Shown here in pieces: positions 2,322-64,000 of a stretch of DNA of 64,000 nucleotides. Where the stretch lies: contig NZ_LT608328.1 of the NCBI RefSeq assembly GCF_900095795.1, positions 1,109,001-1,173,000 on the forward strand, in the 5' to 3' direction. The notes under the pieces were generated by a model, which saw nothing but the letters and a program-made list of their open reading frames with translations, made no database searches and was not told the origin of the DNA. Every line of letters begins with the position of its first letter. The first letter of the stretch is position 1. Both the position numbers and the translations under genes were made by a program. This DNA is from Petrimonas mucosa. GTDB lineage: Bacteria > Bacteroidota > Bacteroidia > Bacteroidales > Dysgonomonadaceae.

Positions 2322-3067
2322 TTTCTGAACTGGAGTTTCTTACCGGCAGCGTTGATGGACTGCTTGACCGTCACTCTCTTTGAAGGCTTGTCTGAAACCA
2401 GTTCGCTACCGGAGGTGTCGAAATAGGAGTCGCCGAGGGTTACGCCGTCGCAGCCGGAGATGACCATCCCCTTGCTTCCGGGCAGCGCCTTGCTCTCCAC
2501 GGTGATGTTGTTGACGGTGACATCTTTGCAATCGGTATAGACCTGGGCATCACCACAGGCATCACGCAGGATAATACCCTCCAGCTTGACATTGTTGCAA
2601 CCGTTGAAGTGGATCAATGCCGGTCTGGTTTGTAAGTCGCTCTCCTTGAGAAACCCTTTTTCAACCTGGGTAGAGATGCTTTTCAATACCCCCTGGCCAT
2701 GCCCCTCGATAACACCCTTACCGGTGATACCGATATTTTCGACACTGTCTGCCAGGATGAGGGCCGGAGTGCCATTAAGACTCAAGTAATCGTAGGCCGA
2801 TTGAAAGGCCACCAGTATGGCTCCTTCGTGCAGCTGGATCGTTACATTGGGTTTCAGTTGGAAACTGCCGGTAAGGTAGCGTCCCACATAGAAGTTGAGC
2901 TGGCCGCCGCCATTGGCACTAATATGGTCGATTGCATACTGGATTGACGCGGTATTCAGGGTCACCCCATCCGATTTGATGCCAAACAGCGAAGCCTTGT
3001 AATCCTTTGCATGGATGGTCAGCGACAGGATGAGAGCAGTGAAGATGATAGCTATTTTTTTATTCAT
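2318..3067 (-). CDS. Truncated, catalytically degenerate GH28-like beta-helix protein
   Basis: About 249 residues from the ATG at 3067, with signal peptide KKIAIIFTALILSLTIHA. It aligns with the N-terminal half of the two GH28 proteins just upstream (YKASLFGIKSDGVTLNT, NGGGQLNFYVGRYLTG, ITGKGVIEGHGQG). Where the neighbours have NNDG(I/L)DIVDC and DA(A/S)DD it has PGSKGMVISGC and DTSGSE, so all the catalytic Asp positions are gone. The C-terminal GIKFG and KIK regions are missing too; the protein stops after 249 residues instead of about 490. It keeps an open frame and overlaps the next gene by four bases. It is probably a binding or structural paralogue, or an early pseudogene. I chose 3067 because the ORF extension upstream lacks signal-peptide character. 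Confidence 0.7.
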   Translation of the reverse strand: MNKKIAIIFTALILSLTIHAKDYKASLFGIKSDGVTLNTASIQYAIDHISANGGGQLNFYVGRYLTGSFQLKPNVTIQLHEGAILVAFQSAYDYLSLNGTPALILADSVENIGITGKGVIEGHGQGVLKSISTQVEKGFLKESDLQTRPALIHFNGCNNVKLEGIILRDACGDAQVYTDCKDVTVNNITVESKALPGSKGMVISGCDGVTLGDSYFDTSGSELVSDKPSKRVTVKQSINAAGKKLQFRK

Positions 3068-3108
3068 TTTCTTCTTCTGATTAAATGGTTGAATGATCAA
3101 AACGAACC

Positions 3109-4596
3109 TTACCGGATCGTCACATTTTTGGAACGGTGTTGAATGATCTGTTCTTTCCCTTTACTGTCGGGTTCAACAAACTCAACGTTTTGGAAAGTGG
3201 CGCCATCTACGTTGTCGATGACAATCGAGGGACGGTAATCCTTCTTCTCGGCAACCAACCTTACATTGTCGAATACCACGCCGTCGGCATGACGCACATA
3301 GAATCCCCAGGCCGGCAACTCTTTCCATTGTGAGAATTCGGGATAGCGGTCACGCATGTCGGGGATGCTGTCCAGTTCAGCCGGAGTTATTCCACGGTAT
3401 GCATAGAGGGGGTTGCCGGCACCGGGATGGACAATCTCGATGTTTTTCAATACCACATCCTGGATTTTATGGTCTGGGAGACCGAATATCACTGCAGGAG
3501 AGATGTTGCGAGGATTGTCCTCCACCGGTCCCTCGTAGCTGTATCCAGCGTCGGGTTTGTTAAAGGGAACCTCGGCATAGACGTTGGAGATGCGGACATT
3601 CTTCATGCTGGGTTGTTTGCCGCTGCTCCAGCGGTCCCCGATGCGTAGGAAGATCACATTTCCAGTATTGATGGAACGGATGCTGTCCACCTCGATATCC
3701 TCAACTATTCCACCGTCCACGGCAGCAAAAGTGATGGCTGAGCGGAAGGTGTCGAATATGGTTACATTTTTGATCTTAAAGTTCCGGAACCCACCACGTG
3801 ATACGGTGCCGAACTTGATCCCATTTGCGCTGGAGCGTCCCACGCAGTTCTCCACTACCACGTTCTGGCAAATGCTGTTGGCATCGTGCGACTTGAAACA
3901 GATCACATCGTCCGCCGCATCGAAGTAGGAGTTCTTGATGATTACCCCGTCACAATCCACGATATCGATTCCGTCGTTGTTCCAGTAGGCTTTGCTGTCC
4001 ACGTAGATGCCATCCACATATACATTCTTGCACTGGTCATATGTCTGGTTCCAGCTTGCCGGGTCACGAAGGGTGATGCCGGTGATGGTGACGTTGACAC
4101 ACTCCCGGAAATAGATATTCTCGGGGCGTCTCCACTCCCTCGGTCTGTCCAGCATAAGCTCATCCTCAAAAACACCGCGGTGAATCAGGCTGACCAGGTT
4201 GTTGGCCGTAGTGAATCCGCGGCCGTTGATGGTTCCCTTGCCGGTAATGCCGATATTTTCCTGGTTGATGGCAAAGATCATGGAAGACCATTTCACCTTG
4301 GGGTCGATCACATAATCGAGGGGATTGGTAGATCCCAGGATGGTTGCTCCAGGTTCCAGGTGCAACGTTACGTTCGATTTCAGATAGATGGTGCCGGTAA
4401 CGTAATTGCCAACCTGGAAGACGAGACGGCCACCGCCATTTTGGTTGATGTAATCGATTGCCCGTTGAATGGTTCGCGTGTTGACCGTAATTCCGTCGGC
4501 TTTGGCGCCAAAATCGGCTACATAGTAATCTTTTGCCGGGAGATGCGTGGCAAACAGGACAAATATAAGTGAGAAAATCAGGTTTATCTTATTCAT
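3109..4596 (-). CDS. GH28 polygalacturonase family glycosidase
   Basis: A 495-residue secreted protein (signal peptide ending near LPAKDYY). Family GH28 hydrolyses galacturonosyl bonds in homogalacturonan or rhamnogalacturonan. Visible catalytic motifs are NNDGIDIVDC at 206-215, the DD pair at 229-230 in FDAADDVICFKS, the SSANGIKFG loop at 255-263 in place of the classical GHG, and KIK at 274-276. Beta-helix rungs cover most of the chain. It lies 12-36 bases from its neighbours in the PUL operon and is a clear paralogue of the gene that precedes it. Exo- versus endo-action and backbone (galacturonan or rhamnogalacturonan) cannot be told from sequence alone. Confidence 0.88.
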   Translation of the reverse strand: MNKINLIFSLIFVLFATHLPAKDYYVADFGAKADGITVNTRTIQRAIDYINQNGGGRLVFQVGNYVTGTIYLKSNVTLHLEPGATILGSTNPLDYVIDPKVKWSSMIFAINQENIGITGKGTINGRGFTTANNLVSLIHRGVFEDELMLDRPREWRRPENIYFRECVNVTITGITLRDPASWNQTYDQCKNVYVDGIYVDSKAYWNNDGIDIVDCDGVIIKNSYFDAADDVICFKSHDANSICQNVVVENCVGRSSANGIKFGTVSRGGFRNFKIKNVTIFDTFRSAITFAAVDGGIVEDIEVDSIRSINTGNVIFLRIGDRWSSGKQPSMKNVRISNVYAEVPFNKPDAGYSYEGPVEDNPRNISPAVIFGLPDHKIQDVVLKNIEIVHPGAGNPLYAYRGITPAELDSIPDMRDRYPEFSQWKELPAWGFYVRHADGVVFDNVRLVAEKKDYRPSIVIDNVDGATFQNVEFVEPDSKGKEQIIQHRSKNVTIR

Positions 4597-56857: not shown

Positions 56858-58225
56858 CAATAGTTCGTTAAAAATATAGTTTGGAGTCAAGCAGCACTTG
56901 CTGCAAACTCAATGAGTTCCTTGACAAGTTTATCATTTAATCTTCTGTTCGGTTTAATGCCGGACACGCAAATAAATCGTTCAAGCAAGTAGGCGTTGTG
57001 TATCATCGTTTTACATGATGCCATCGAAAAAGGAATACCTCTTTCCCTTGCCAGCACCTTTGCCAGGTTGACCGAGGTAAGAGATGCATTAAAGTTGAAC
57101 GATAGCTTTGCTACGTCCCTTGCCTGCGATTGTATCAGTCCTGTGAAGCCTTTGGCATCCCTGAAGCAAAACTCGATCTGAAAACGGGTGCGGTAAAATT
57201 CTATGACATCTTTTCCACTCATCTCAGGATTGGTAGAGAAGAACAGTTTTGGTTTTTTCCCATCTTTGAAATACCAGATGACAAGCCTGACCATCTGTTT
57301 AAGTGATTTGGAATAGGCTACCAAGGTGTAGAGATCACCGTTATCAATATTGATCTTTTGCACTCTGGTTGTATCCAGGTTGGCCATGTCAATCTTTCCG
57401 TCGTAGAGTTTAGGCCTGCCTTTCTTGCCTGTCGGTTTCTGCAGTGTTGGATAATAAAGTGCGGCGTCATCCCTGAAGCGGCTGACCAGATCAAACTTCA
57501 TCTCTTGCAGACCCGTAGCGAAGTTGTTCTTTGCGAAGTAGGCATCGGCAACCACGTGACGGCTTGCCCGATGGAGTTTCTCCCGCATCGATTTAATGAC
57601 CAGCAGGTACCAGTCAGTCAGGTTGGCATCACGACTCTCCAGGGTTTGACGGTCCGGAGTCTGAACGGCCTGTAGACTGATGCAATCCTTGTTGTCGACG
57701 TCTATAAGGCCCACTCCCAGGATTTCCAATCCTCTTTTCGCCTGACCGGCTGCACCCGACCAGAAGTAACCAATCCAAGGGGTATTCTTTCCTGATTTGG
57801 ATATATAACTGGGATCAATGGCAATTGCCTTGCGATCTCCGGTTAATACCCTATCAGACAAAGACAAGTTAAACTCCAGCCAATCAAAATCCTTCGAGAA
57901 GTTCTGGCGAAATCGCTGTTCACACGACTTGCCATATCTCCCCAATTGTAGGAAATTAATCCTGCCGGGAATGACCAGATACAAAATAAGCGTCTCCATA
58001 AGGAATGATTTGAAACTTTTGTTTAACTTCGTAGTTAGTTCACCAAGAACATCACTACAGATACCTTTATATTGGTTAAGTATGCTGGTTCTATCCATCT
58101 TTATTAGACTTTGATCAGCTATAAAGATACTGATAATCAGATACTTAACCATCTTTTTTATGTTAAACTATGTTATGTAAATCATTGAATTTTAATTAGT
58201 TAATTGAATATTTACCGAAGTATTG
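56858..58225 (-). mobile_element. IS4-type insertion sequence, copy 1
   Basis: 1368 bp. Terminal inverted repeats CAATAGTTCGTTAAAAATAT (left) and, read inwards from the right, CAATACTTCGGTAAATATTC: 15 of the first 18 positions match. One transposase gene fills it. The right end touches the ATG of the cargo lipoprotein gene. Confidence 0.85.
56887..58098 (-). CDS. IS4-type transposase, copy 1
   Basis: 403 residues from ATG 58098 (MDRTSILNQYKG). DDE transposase of the IS4/DDE_Tnp_1 type: first Asp in AIAIDPSYISKSGK, second in HVVADAYFAKNNF, and the IS4 signature Y(2)R(3)E(6)K in FYRTRFQIEFCFRDAKGF. Intact and probably the functional copy. It differs from copy 2 by a few substitutions and by keeping the KVLA residues in SVNLAKVLARERG. 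Upstream ATG 58152 was rejected because the second copy lacks it. Confidence 0.9.
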   Translation of the reverse strand: MDRTSILNQYKGICSDVLGELTTKLNKSFKSFLMETLILYLVIPGRINFLQLGRYGKSCEQRFRQNFSKDFDWLEFNLSLSDRVLTGDRKAIAIDPSYISKSGKNTPWIGYFWSGAAGQAKRGLEILGVGLIDVDNKDCISLQAVQTPDRQTLESRDANLTDWYLLVIKSMREKLHRASRHVVADAYFAKNNFATGLQEMKFDLVSRFRDDAALYYPTLQKPTGKKGRPKLYDGKIDMANLDTTRVQKINIDNGDLYTLVAYSKSLKQMVRLVIWYFKDGKKPKLFFSTNPEMSGKDVIEFYRTRFQIEFCFRDAKGFTGLIQSQARDVAKLSFNFNASLTSVNLAKVLARERGIPFSMASCKTMIHNAYLLERFICVSGIKPNRRLNDKLVKELIEFAASAA

Positions 58226-59904: not shown

Positions 59905-60663
59905 TTAGTCATTTTCTCTGTTTTCAGTTTGATTTGATACTTTTTTCTGCCGTAGAGAGGCACCTTTTAGCTCGAAGCGCACACTTGTGTGCACCAAACG
60001 GTCGAGGATGGCATCCGCGGCCGTAGTGTTTCCCTTCATCACATCGTACCAGTCGGCTACTGGTAACTGTGAGATGATGATGGTAGCTTTTTGGCCGTGC
60101 CTGTCTTCTATGATTTCCATAAAGTCAAGCAGTTGTTGACCATCGAGCACCTTCATGCCGAAGTCATCCAGGATGAGCAGGTCAGTCTGTGCGAGCTTGG
60201 CAAAGAACCGGTGCAGGGTACTGGCGATGCGTGCAAGTGCAATCTCCTCGAAGAGACGGTAGACATTGTAGTATGCCACCTTGAGTCCGTTCATGCAGGC
60301 CTGATGCCCCAGAGCAGTACCGAGCCAGCTCTTGCCTGTTCCTGCCGCTCCTGTGATGAGCACAGATACTCCCTTGCGCACATAGTCGCATGTGGCCAGA
60401 TTGAGCACCTTCTGCTTGTCCACTCCGCGTTTGCTGTCGTAGATGACCTCGCCGATAGAGGCTTGATAGCGGAAGCGGGCTTTCTTCACCAGACGCGTGT
60501 TCCGGCTTGTCGTGCGGTTGTCCAACTCGGCCTGTATAAGCAGTTGCAGGCCATCTTTCAAGGAGATCGAATCATGCTGTCGCGTCTCCATCATGGTAGT
60601 CCAGTAATGCGCCATTCCGGGCATCTTCAGACTTCTCAGGGCGTTTGATATTTCGTCCATCAT
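59905..60663 (-). CDS. Orphan IstB-like ATPase of an IS21-family element
   Basis: 252 residues from ATG 60663 (MMDEISNALRSLKMPGMAHYW). AAA+ helper of IS21 transposition: Walker A GAAGTGKSW, Walker B LLILDDFGMK, sensor motif ATIIISQLPVADWY. Normally it follows istA, the transposase, but here IS4 copy 2 begins 31 bases upstream and no istA is present. The gene itself is intact. It is a leftover of an IS21 element into which the IS4-type element inserted. Confidence 0.88.
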   Translation of the reverse strand: MMDEISNALRSLKMPGMAHYWTTMMETRQHDSISLKDGLQLLIQAELDNRTTSRNTRLVKKARFRYQASIGEVIYDSKRGVDKQKVLNLATCDYVRKGVSVLITGAAGTGKSWLGTALGHQACMNGLKVAYYNVYRLFEEIALARIASTLHRFFAKLAQTDLLILDDFGMKVLDGQQLLDFMEIIEDRHGQKATIIISQLPVADWYDVMKGNTTAADAILDRLVHTSVRFELKGASLRQKKVSNQTENREND

Positions 60664-60693
60664 GTTTGTTGTTTTGGGTGGGTTGATGTATAA

Positions 60694-62049
60694 CAATAGT
60701 TCGTTAAAAATATAGTTTAGAGTCACGCAGCACTTGCTGCAAACTCAATGAGTTCTTTGACAAGTTTATCATTTAATCTTCTGTTCGGTTTAATGCCGGA
60801 CACGCAAATAAATCGTTCAAGCAAGTAGGCATTGTGTATCATCGTTTTACATGATGCCATCGAAAAAGGAATACCTCTTTCCCTTGCCAGGTTGACCGAG
60901 GTAAGAGACGCATTAAAGTTGAACGATAGCTTTGCTACGTCCCTTGCCTGCGATTGCATCAGTCCTGTGAAGCCTTTGGCATCCCTGAAGCAAAACTCGA
61001 TCTGAAAACGGGTGCGGTAAAATTCTATAACATCTTTTCCACTCATCTCAGGATTGGTAGAGAAGAACAGTTTTGGTTTTTTCCCATCCTTGGAATACCA
61101 GATGACAAGCCTGACCATCTGTTTAAATGATTTGGAATAGGCTATCAAGGTGTAGAGATCACCGTTATCAATATTGATCTTTTGCACTCTGGTTGTATCC
61201 AGGTTGGCCATGTCAATCTTTCCGTCGTAGAGTTTGGGCCTGCCTTTCTTGCCTGTCGGTTTCTGCAGTGTTGGATAATAAAGTGCGGCGTCATCCCTGA
61301 AACGGCTGACCAGATCAAACTTCATCTCTTGCAGACCCGTAACGAAGTTGTTCTTTGCGAAGTAGGCATCGGCAACCACGTGACGGCTTGCCCGATGGAG
61401 TTTCTCCTGCATCGATTTAAGGACCAAAAGGTACCAGTCAATCAGGTTGGCATCACGACTCTCCAGGGTTTGACGGTCCGGAGTCTGAACGGCCTGTAGA
61501 TTGATGCAATCCTGGTTGTCGACGTCTATAAGGCCCACTCCCAGGATTTCCAATCCTCTTTTCGCCTGACCGGCTGCACCCGACCAGAAGTAACCAATCC
61601 AAGGGGTATTCTTTCCTGATTTGGATATATAACTGGGATCAATGGCAATTGCCTTGCGATCTCCGGTAAATACCCTATCAGACAAAGACAAGTTAAACTC
61701 CAGCCAATCAAAATCCTTCGAGAAGTTCTGGCGAAATCGCTGTTCACACGACTTGCCATATCTCCCCAATTGTAGGAAATTAATCCTGCCGGGAATGACC
61801 AGATACAAAATAAGCGTCTCCATAAGGAATGATTTGAAACTTTTGTTTAACTTCGTAGTTAGTTCACCAAGAACATCACTACAGATACCTCTATATTGGT
61901 TAAGTATGCTGGTTCTATCCATCTTTATTAGGTTTTGATCAGCTATAAAGATACTGATAATCAGCTACTTAACCATCTTTTTTATGTTAAACTATGCTAT
62001 GTAAATCATTGAATTTTAATTAGTTAATTGAATATTTACCGAAGTATTG
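60694..62049 (-). mobile_element. IS4-type insertion sequence, copy 2
   Basis: 1356 bp with the same ends as copy 1, 12 bp shorter because of one in-frame deletion in the transposase. ATAA (4 bp) lies on both sides of this copy (60690-60693 and 62050-62053), but this forms part of the 7-bp ATAAGGT found outside copy 1, so it may be chance. Confidence 0.85.
60723..61922 (-). CDS. IS4-type transposase, copy 2, with a four-residue deletion
   Basis: 399 residues. Almost identical to copy 1 but SVNLAKVLARERG reads SVNLARERG. At DNA level, 12 bases between two copies of TTGCCAG have been lost, as happens in replication slippage. The deletion is about 60 residues after the IS4 YREK motif, in a helical segment, so activity may be reduced. 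The DDE residues are kept. Confidence 0.85.
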   Translation of the reverse strand: MDRTSILNQYRGICSDVLGELTTKLNKSFKSFLMETLILYLVIPGRINFLQLGRYGKSCEQRFRQNFSKDFDWLEFNLSLSDRVFTGDRKAIAIDPSYISKSGKNTPWIGYFWSGAAGQAKRGLEILGVGLIDVDNQDCINLQAVQTPDRQTLESRDANLIDWYLLVLKSMQEKLHRASRHVVADAYFAKNNFVTGLQEMKFDLVSRFRDDAALYYPTLQKPTGKKGRPKLYDGKIDMANLDTTRVQKINIDNGDLYTLIAYSKSFKQMVRLVIWYSKDGKKPKLFFSTNPEMSGKDVIEFYRTRFQIEFCFRDAKGFTGLMQSQARDVAKLSFNFNASLTSVNLARERGIPFSMASCKTMIHNAYLLERFICVSGIKPNRRLNDKLVKELIEFAASAA

Positions 62050-62507: not shown

Positions 62508-62713
62508 AATATCAATTCACAGTTAAAAAGTTGATTTTGTCACTTTAAATTTCAAAGATATGGAATAGTTATAAACTTATGCTCATTAATGGGATTTTTT
62601 TGATAAATAATTTCACGATCCTGATTGTTGAATTACCATATTTTTTAGAGTGAGACCGTTTTTATTGCATTGTTTATGCTACAAAAAAAATCACTTAAAA
62701 ATATATCGAATTA

Positions 62714-62745
62714 TTTGCTAAATGAACATATGTTCATTATATTTG
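62714..62745 (+). promoter_or_regulatory. Consensus promoter overlaid by a palindrome
   Basis: TTTG at 62714-62717, 20-base spacer, TATATTTG at 62738-62745: both boxes match exactly. The spacer is almost filled by the 18-bp palindrome at 62721-62738. It drives the short ORF at 62766 and the DUF5320 gene. Confidence 0.8.
62721..62738. promoter_or_regulatory. 18-bp perfect palindromic operator
   Basis: AATGAACATATGTTCATT is a perfect inverted repeat between the -33 and -7 boxes. TGAACA-type half sites are seen with ArsR/SmtB metal repressors, but no ArsR gene is in view; the divergent DUF134 regulator is the nearest candidate. Binding here would block the promoter. Confidence 0.75.
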
Positions 62746-62765: not shown

Positions 62766-62978
62766 ATGTTGGCGATCTCAAAATGGAACGGTGAAAAACA
62801 TCTTTTGAAAGTAGCCATCACCGGACATCTGGGCGACAAGGCAGCATCGGTTGCGAGACAACTCGGTATTGAGATGACCCCGCTCGATGATCGGCAGAGA
62901 AGTGTGGAAGAGGTGATTCTGATGATCAAAAAGAGAAATTTTACATTTAACAAAAGGAGGTTATTATGCCAGGAATGA
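62766..62978 (+). CDS. Short protein, possibly a truncated NifX-like (FeMo-cofactor-binding family) fragment
   Basis: 70 residues. HLLKVAITGHLGDKAASVARQLGIEM and the following RSVEEVILMIKKRNF resemble the second half of PF02579-type proteins (ITG...G..A...L...GI.....VEE), but the N-terminal half is missing. This reading rests partly on context, since DUF134 and DUF5320 genes often flank such proteins. It overlaps the next gene by 13 bases. It may be a real small protein or a remnant. Confidence 0.4.
   Translation: MLAISKWNGEKHLLKVAITGHLGDKAASVARQLGIEMTPLDDRQRSVEEVILMIKKRNFTFNKRRLLCQE
62953..62963 (+). promoter_or_regulatory. Strong Shine-Dalgarno before the DUF5320 gene
   Basis: AAAGGAGG stands six bases before the DUF5320 ATG at 62966. 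Bacteroidetes ribosomes hide the anti-SD sequence and their genes seldom carry such sites, so this is unusual here. Confidence 0.6.
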
Positions 62979-63202: not shown

Positions 63203-63630
63203 CTGTCAGTAGTATAGATTCTGTGAAAGCATACACTCACTTCTACTGAGAAAAAAGCGCTTGCCGCTGAGTTGTTCTCACGCTTTCACAATAGGACCCG
63301 TTTTTTCAGTCCCCACTCTCTCAAGAGAACTCTACCGTCTTTTCAGGGAGAAGAGTGGCGTGGCCGATCTTTACAAACAGATCAAGTATGAGAGCAACGA
63401 GCGCCTGCTCGCTGAAGCCAGGAGCTCTTCTTGGAATTGTCCATTCTTCTTTTCCTGAATCCCAGGGAATCCCGATCCAGATCACGGCTTGAGGCAACCG
63501 GCCATCAAAACGTAAAAGTGTTTGAAAACAGCATGATGGCCTGGCCTTATATGCGGAGGTGATAAAATGAGACTCGTGGTATCCTGCCGTCAATCAGGAT
63601 TTTAAGCAACAACTGAAAAAATAAGTCAGG
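63203..63630 (+). pseudogene. Decayed region with a DUF89-like relic
   Basis: In the frame around 63246-63410 I read FSVPTLSRELYRLFREKSG followed by VADLYKQIKYESNERLLA, which resembles the N-terminal region of DUF89/ARMT1-like damage-control phosphatases. The frame has no good start and ends at a stop at 63456-63458. Another frame continues to about 63560 without a recognisable match. At 63555-63563 stands GGAGGTGAT, an ideal Shine-Dalgarno, before a 12-codon ORF (MRLVVSCRQSGF). The stretch looks like one or more genes inactivated by frameshifts and deletions. Confidence 0.4.
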
Positions 63631-64000
63631 ATGAAACAAAAGTGGTGTAATCAATCAAAACTGAACCTGAGCATTGACATCATCATGTTATTACTGCTCA
63701 TGCCCTTGGCGGGAATCGGCTTCCTGATAAAATATGTTCTGATCCCCGGTATTCAGCGGAACGAACGCTACGGGGCTGGTGTTGAACTGGAATTTTGGGG
63801 ACTAACACGTCACCAATGGGGATCCATTCACCTGATCATCAGTATCGTTTTCCTCGTTCTTTTACTTCTTCACATTATTCTGCATTGGAAAATGATCGTT
63901 GGGATCTTCAAACGGATGTTTCCTGATAAAGCTTTATGTGCAATATCGGCCACACTGATTGCCGGTACCGGTCTTCTCATGATTGTATTTCCTCTTTTTG
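63631..64000 (+). CDS. DUF4405-like membrane protein (cut by window edge)
   Basis: 123 codons from ATG 63631 to the edge, no stop. Three helices are visible (about 15-37, 66-90, 110-123). The pattern HQWGSIHLIISIVFLVLL and LHIILHWKMIVGIF carries paired His residues spaced as in DUF4405 proteins, which resemble cytochrome b-type heme-binding membrane proteins. Function unknown. It follows the decayed region and may belong to the same cluster. Confidence 0.72.
   Translation, partial: MKQKWCNQSKLNLSIDIIMLLLLMPLAGIGFLIKYVLIPGIQRNERYGAGVELEFWGLTRHQWGSIHLIISIVFLVLLLLHIILHWKMIVGIFKRMFPDKALCAISATLIAGTGLLMIVFPLF

Follow-up and report, generated by a model that had tools for sequence, protein, structure and literature searches.

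A palindromic promoter site in Petrimonas mucosa as a putative operator of the adjacent DUF134 protein

Which protein reads the 18-bp perfect palindrome AATGAACATATGTTCATT that lies in a promoter spacer of Petrimonas mucosa, and to what effect? We addressed this question in a 64-kb stretch of the genome (the window), and the features discussed are collected in Table 1. Bacteroidota promoters have a -33 box TTTG and, after about 20 bp, a -7 box TAnnTTTG. This housekeeping pattern is satisfied at the palindrome (operator O1), with the layout TTTG-N20-TATATTTG; the spacer is filled by the palindrome, the last base of which (62738) also opens the -7 box. The exact boxes, the 20-bp spacing, and the perfect palindrome described in the sequence-only reading of this DNA were all recovered at these positions. 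The gene for a DUF134 protein is divergent from this rightward promoter, and we propose that the palindrome is a putative operator of this adjacent protein, which would repress both the rightward NifX/DUF5320 operon and itself. We put the probability of this reading at roughly 0.84. The sites, their geometry and conservation, the linkage to DUF134, the phylogenetic-profile co-occurrence, and the partial match between recognition helix and half-site are sequence-based.

Table 1. Features of the DUF134 locus in the window
Feature	Position	Strand	Remarks
DUF134 protein, 138 aa	62091..62507	-	Proposed regulator; helix-turn-helix and CxxC...CxxC C terminus; PF02001, 80.3 bits (cut-off 27)
-7 box TATCTTTG, leftward (DUF134) promoter	62553..62560	-	11 bp from O2
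Operator O2, TGAGCATAAGTTTA	62572..62585	-	Degenerate, 2 mismatches versus TGAACATAAGTTCA; at DUF134's own promoter
-33 box TTTG, rightward promoter	62714..62717	+	Bacteroidota consensus
Operator O1, AATGAACATATGTTCATT	62721..62738	none	18-bp perfect palindrome; core TGAACATATGTTCA at 62723-62736
-7 box TATATTTG, rightward promoter	62738..62745	+	
70-aa ORF	62766..62978	+	Remnant of a NifX-type (Nitro_FeMo-Co) gene, middle missing; no Pfam hit
DUF5320 protein, 78 aa	62966..63202	+	PF17253, 36.6 bits (cut-off 27)
65-aa fragment	63261..63458	+	ARMT1-like (PF01937) in part, by-eye comparison with the L021 ORF; no Pfam hit itself
DUF4405 membrane protein	63631..63999	+	PF14358; extends past the window (genomic length, 248 aa); full ORF in L015

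The 18-bp palindrome was the sole match in the window at up to 3 mismatches (shuffle mean, 0.05). A second copy of the operator, O2, had been overlooked in the earlier reading. Beyond O2 lies a -7 box directed toward the DUF134 gene, at an offset of +25 that falls inside the +24 to +27 class of related sites described below, and the relatives L022 to L024 carry TGAACATAAGTTTA at the place matching O2. O2 together with this box facing DUF134 supports the view that the two divergent promoters, one of them that of DUF134 itself, are both controlled.

Throughout the contig (3,717,632 bases; 3.72-Mb genome), the exact core TGAACATATGTTCA occurred twice, in the window and at 3184836. PF02001 also had exactly two matches, at 1171223-1171501 and 3184280-3184558, both on the minus strand, and each exact copy lay upstream of one of these two DUF134 genes. 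The second copy heads a gene row encoding a DUF5320 protein, DUF134, a metallo-beta-lactamase-fold protein, and a NifX-type protein. At up to 2 mismatches the core had 13 places compared with 8 for a reversed control, so that in this genome weight can be placed only on copies that match the core exactly or nearly so.

The proposal that the same palindrome be sought at other Bacteroidales DUF134 loci gave a strongly positive result, both here and in the order-wide co-occurrence reported below. A scan with the DUF134 protein yielded 49 loci, Bacteroidota by their titles, two of which offered fewer than 400 bp upstream. In the 400 bp before DUF134, TGAAC-N4-GTTCA was found with no more than 1 mismatch at 41 of the 49 loci and was exact at 27. 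TGAAC ranked first among the 1024 possible five-base half-sites, with TTTTT (26 loci) as the runner-up; permutations of TGAAC reached at most 3 loci, and gaps of 0 to 3 and 5 to 10 gave 0 to 2 loci. The loci are partly dependent, with L057 and L062 on one contig. The conserved part of the operator is the 14-bp core, the outer AA/TT being conserved only in part. Six of the 14 core positions were invariant among the 41 sites, partly from the selection of the sites; one of the six, the A at position 8, formed no part of that selection. Among the eight loci that lacked the motif at 1 mismatch, L021, L027, L030, and L045 had degenerate sites and L039 a weak one at best; inspection upstream of L051, L053, and L064 found no convincing degenerate site. 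The recognition helix is altered in L053 (SRST) and L064 (SQST) and is of the usual type in L051.

The -7 boxes kept to two preferred offsets. Around the 41 sites there were 39 occurrences of TAnnTTTG, 38 of them downstream, compared with about 1.9 in shuffled downstream flanks. Counted from the start of the motif, the offset of the -7 box was +15 at 12 sites, +24 at 15, and +25 to +27 at 8. O1 has the offset +15, at which the operator fills the promoter spacer. The earlier description of the palindrome as a repressor site for a dimer is supported, with repression by DUF134 suggested by the promoter geometry. The 23 sites at +24 (15) and +25 to +27 (8) lie over the -33 region, not inside the spacer, and are compatible with a DUF134 protein that, once bound there, acts as an activator or as a switch governed by metal state and not as a simple repressor. 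We consider this unlikely, given that O1 and the 12 related sites occupy the usual repressor position and that the Bacillota-type sites described below cover the TTGACA box or sit near the start codon. A chance origin of the palindrome was ruled out by the window shuffles, the half-site ranking, and the -7 box offsets. As a separate observation, position +16, counted from where the motif starts, was A at 41 of 41 Bacteroidota sites (L020 to L068) in both geometry classes; this invariant A may belong to the promoter or may extend the operator asymmetrically.

In alignments, the window protein had the conserved N terminus and the helix-turn-helix with SR.T that mark the DUF134/UPF0251 family; to our knowledge, DNA binding has been predicted for this family before and is not new here. 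B. subtilis DeoR (7bhy and 8r7y) was the top PDB relative by sequence profile, with E values of 0.0011 and 5.2e-06 for 7bhy in two alignments. When the window protein was modelled with AlphaFold2 (pLDDT, 80.5), DeoR was also the top row in Foldseek (0.6 A over 39 columns; E value, 0.08), and sigma region 4 was among the top matches as well (E value, about 0.08). VIA-align gave a Z of about 8 against sigma region 4, a score of a kind common for small helical domains and no proof of relationship. DeoR, a member of the SorC family, has the helix NISRPTVSR and the window protein NVSRPTLTR, both with an SRPT core. In the available part of the DeoR report (PMC11229326), the operator ATTGAACAAAATTTCAAT has TGAA-N6-TTCA, the same spacing as in the Bacteroidota DUF134 sites; a DeoR tetramer occupies a 39-bp operator, base contacts fall in the TTGAACA of ATTGAACAAAATTTCAAT. 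Two arginines, R34 and R39, are reported to lie close to bases, with caution given on the resolution; being five residues apart, they would map to the arginines of SRPT and TVSR. The Bacteroidota DUF134 proteins retain both (R63 and R68) at 90% or more, whereas other DUF134 helix types are without the second arginine and have different half-sites. DUF134 differs from SorC/DeoR in its short C terminus with CxxC pairs, a CxxC...CxxC arrangement that the alignment showed to be typical of Bacteroidota DUF134. No sugar-phosphate effector domain was found in the window protein by Pfam at an E value of 0.001, which returned only DUF134, Sigma70_r4, and HTH_23.

Our literature search covered DUF134, UPF0251, DUF5320, COG1342, NifX-type regulons, and ORP clusters and found no account of DUF134 as a characterised regulator and no operator or regulon of UPF0251/DUF134. 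In the portion of PMC5886521 available, a UPF0251 gene appears only in a mutation table, and the excerpt of PMC10434189 does not mention DUF134. The operator, the target set, and the helix correspondence thus appear new within the literature searched.

Plasmid and viral sequences gave 17 further DUF134 loci: 12 from among 189 DUF134-matching plasmid records, those examined, and five from viral contigs. Two of the 17 are Bacteroidota (15 lie outside), and two pairs, L199/L200 and L201/L202, are near duplicates. The viral loci came from a search with an 18-row profile; searches with the single Peptoclostridium DUF134 protein found no match in the viral contigs or in phage records. By inspection, a near-palindrome of the CATATG type was present within 150 bp upstream of DUF134 at all 17 loci. 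Each locus was scored by the better of two patterns, both picked after the plasmid loci had been read. At 15 of the 17 loci, no more than 1.7% of 300 shuffles attained this score; the figure was 6% for Dongshaea and 4% for Proteus. Helices with SRPT and an R five residues past the first R went with TGA[AG]CATTTG. Helices of the type [SA]R[TA]T went with TTGAC in at least one half-site, and in L189, L190, L192, and L199 to L202 the right half was CCA (a TGG half, or TTGGC from the other side). SRQT helices went with T.GC and never with TTGAC, and this held in Acetoanaerobium (Bacillota, L187), in which an SRQT helix is accompanied by a site, TTAGCAAATGCCAA, of the type seen in Gammaproteobacteria. 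Some sites depart from these types: the second site of L197 (AACATATGTAA), L194 with one TGAGC half, and L193 with altered centres. Helix and half-site thus correspond clearly when SRPT is set against the other types, and in part among those other types. On the gammaproteobacterial plasmids L195, L197, and L194, genes for DUF134, NifX, and a PaaI-thioesterase occur together with two CATATG-centred sites upstream.

The TTGAC-N4-GTCAA form resembles Crp/Fnr-type boxes, and at one Bacillota locus (L190) a Crp/Fnr-type gene adjoins DUF134; both facts would fit a Crp/Fnr-type regulator (HcpR/FNR-like) that reads TGAAC-N4-GTTCA or TTGAC-N4-GTCAA, with DUF134 merely co-regulated. However, the outer half-site changes along with the helix of DUF134, as it does at the Bacillota locus L187, and the exact core copies in the P. 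mucosa genome are restricted to the two DUF134 loci; we regard such a regulator as very improbable. For DUF134 itself, a broader proposal can be made tentatively, one that we would not back at even odds: DUF134 proteins may form a cross-phylum family of one-component regulators that follow a partial recognition code centred on CATATG, in which SRPT..R would read TGAAC, [SA]R[TA]T would read TTGAC in at least one half and tolerate TTGGC in the other, and SRQT..N would read T.GC. Their targets would be NifX/DUF5320/MrpORP-type genes of anaerobes, and their signal a thiometallate or metal-sulfur cluster sensed via the Cys4 tail or a fused NifX domain. If this were true, one motif would yield regulon maps for unexplained metal-cofactor genes.

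The motif also followed DUF134 across the order. Among 61 relatives searched for the distribution of DUF134, 29 had a match, 24 of them over the cut-off. For the order-wide sample we took 247 genomes, with at least 90% completeness requested, and counted as DUF134 positive those with a match over the Pfam cut-off, so that two genomes with weaker matches were scored negative. The motif TGAACRTANGTTCA was present in 75 of 134 DUF134-positive and 14 of 113 DUF134-negative genomes (odds ratio, 9; p about 5e-13), compared with 21 of 134 and 8 of 113 for a reversed control motif (p = 0.047). The strict motif was absent from 59 of the 134 positive genomes. The suggestion that DUF134 next door is the regulator gains support both from the motif, which tracks DUF134, and from the half-site, which shifts in part with its recognition helix.

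The same sample bears on an ArsR/SmtB-type repressor encoded elsewhere, the other candidate of the sequence-only reading. TGAAC-type palindromes are known at ArsR/SmtB sites, and the ArsR/SmtB repressors share with the proposed system a short palindromic operator overlapping the promoter and, possibly, a metal signal. The P. mucosa genome has two PF01022 genes, one of which (L017) has the imperfect palindrome TAAACATATATTCA upstream (1742-1755). However, no arsR-family gene was found at the regulated locus, both PF01022 genes lying near 2.12 Mb, at least about 0.95 Mb from either DUF134 locus. PF01022 matched in 223 of the 247 genomes, and among these the motif was present in 74 of 132 with DUF134 versus 13 of 91 without; it follows DUF134, a separate family, and not ArsR. 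Four ArsR-negative genomes were identified by elimination between the DUF134 and ArsR match lists, and G137 carries DUF134 and the motif without a PF01022 match. ArsR genes do occur nearby in places: in G185 a motif beside DUF134 has one at a distance of about 360 bp (at least one such case among the places listed), and in L195 one lies about 2 kb downstream of DUF134. Gene distance and the phylogenetic profile, together with a site that differs along with the DUF134 helix, make ArsR a very improbable reader of the site.

The genes beside the motif point the same way. Among the motif places and DUF134 domains listed, 44 of 107 places lay 11 to 582 bp upstream of such a domain. The other 63, covered by 60 genomic regions, comprised 30 sites inside ORFs and 33 intergenic sites, and 19 of the latter were flanked by genes for DUF5320 (9), NifX-type (7), or DUF134 (3) proteins. 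The sequence-only reading had held that DUF134 would be called into question if the site occurred at unrelated genes that have an ArsR regulator; what we found instead was this set of recurring neighbours, with a motif that follows DUF134 among ArsR-positive genomes and flanking genes that, judged by eye, included none recognised as ArsR. The 33 sites are flanked by 46 ORFs, and among the matches listed (25 of 88 Pfam families) there were 9 for DUF5320, 8 for Nitro_FeMo-Co, 3 for DUF134, 2 for Pyr_redox_2, and 1 for rubrerythrin; the L129 protein matches both DUF134 and Nitro_FeMo-Co and is counted in two families at one site. This protein (3065-4021), from the same order, is a DUF134-Nitro_FeMo-Co fusion with an exact operator 23 bp before its ORF. 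Single further sites precede genes for a DUF4405 protein (L177), a 4Fe-4S protein (L178), and a KaiC-like ATPase (L180), and the neighbours of the remaining intergenic sites look unrelated. In two regions (L127, 4325; L160, 7204), operator sites precede a pyridine nucleotide-disulphide oxidoreductase gene, and a DUF5320 site is present in the same regions. From the DUF134-negative genomes 17 sites were listed, from 11 of the 14 motif-bearing genomes, with 10 inside ORFs and 7 intergenic. The intergenic ones include sites at a NifX-type gene (G212) and a DUF5320 gene (G046), which suggests that DUF134 may be missing from the assemblies or that the site outlives the gene.

The simplest reading is that of a homodimeric DUF134 repressor. 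We infer physical binding, a dimer, repression, and a signal, and the steps could be as follows. Each TGAAC half-site would take one of the two recognition helices (NVSRPTLTR) of a DUF134 homodimer. At O1 the homodimer would fill the promoter spacer, from the -33 to the -7 box, and block the rightward operon (NifX remnant, DUF5320, and DUF4405); at the weaker O2 it would overlap the -33 region of its own promoter, giving negative autoregulation. A signal, most likely the metal, iron-sulfur, or thiometallate state, would alter binding and would be sensed by the Cys4 C terminus or, where a DUF134 protein elsewhere carries a fused NifX-type domain, by that domain. Such a fusion of a Nitro_FeMo-Co domain to DUF134 was seen in Roseburia, Treponema, and L129. 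In Peptoclostridium, DUF134 occurs with NifX-type, ATP-binding, and MrpORP genes, which places it among the genes of the ORP/MrpORP clusters of anaerobes; the part of PMC6345978 at hand reports MrpORP in Fe-S biogenesis. A metal-sulfur or redox signal is likely for DUF134 on account of the CxxC...CxxC tail, the NifX-type fusions, and the NifX-type, MrpORP, and redox neighbours and targets, as far as these can be read from sequence. DUF134 probably controls its own gene along with others that handle iron-sulfur or metal cofactors. The domain is widespread, and the operator, the target set, and the partial match of helix and half-site would make it a testable transcription factor family, with DUF5320 and NifX-type genes (DUF4405 in single cases) joined in one candidate regulon.

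The operon in the window is partly decayed. In L020, the DUF134 protein of which is 91% identical to that of the window, an intact NifX-type ORF lies at the same place (415-780, minus); residues 18 to 60 of the 70-aa ORF are 81% identical to the end of this 121-aa ORF, which matches PF02579, and by this comparison the remnant lacks the middle of the gene. The second DUF134 locus of the genome retains its NifX-type gene. The 65-aa fragment is probably decayed too, to judge from an L021 ORF near DUF134 (2356-2964, minus) that matches PF01937, and the DUF5320 and DUF4405 genes appear intact. Near the locus, the window also holds an IS21 IstB gene (59905-60726) and two near-identical transposase-type ORFs (56887-58152 and 60723-61922), the latter of which, when tested, had DDE domains.
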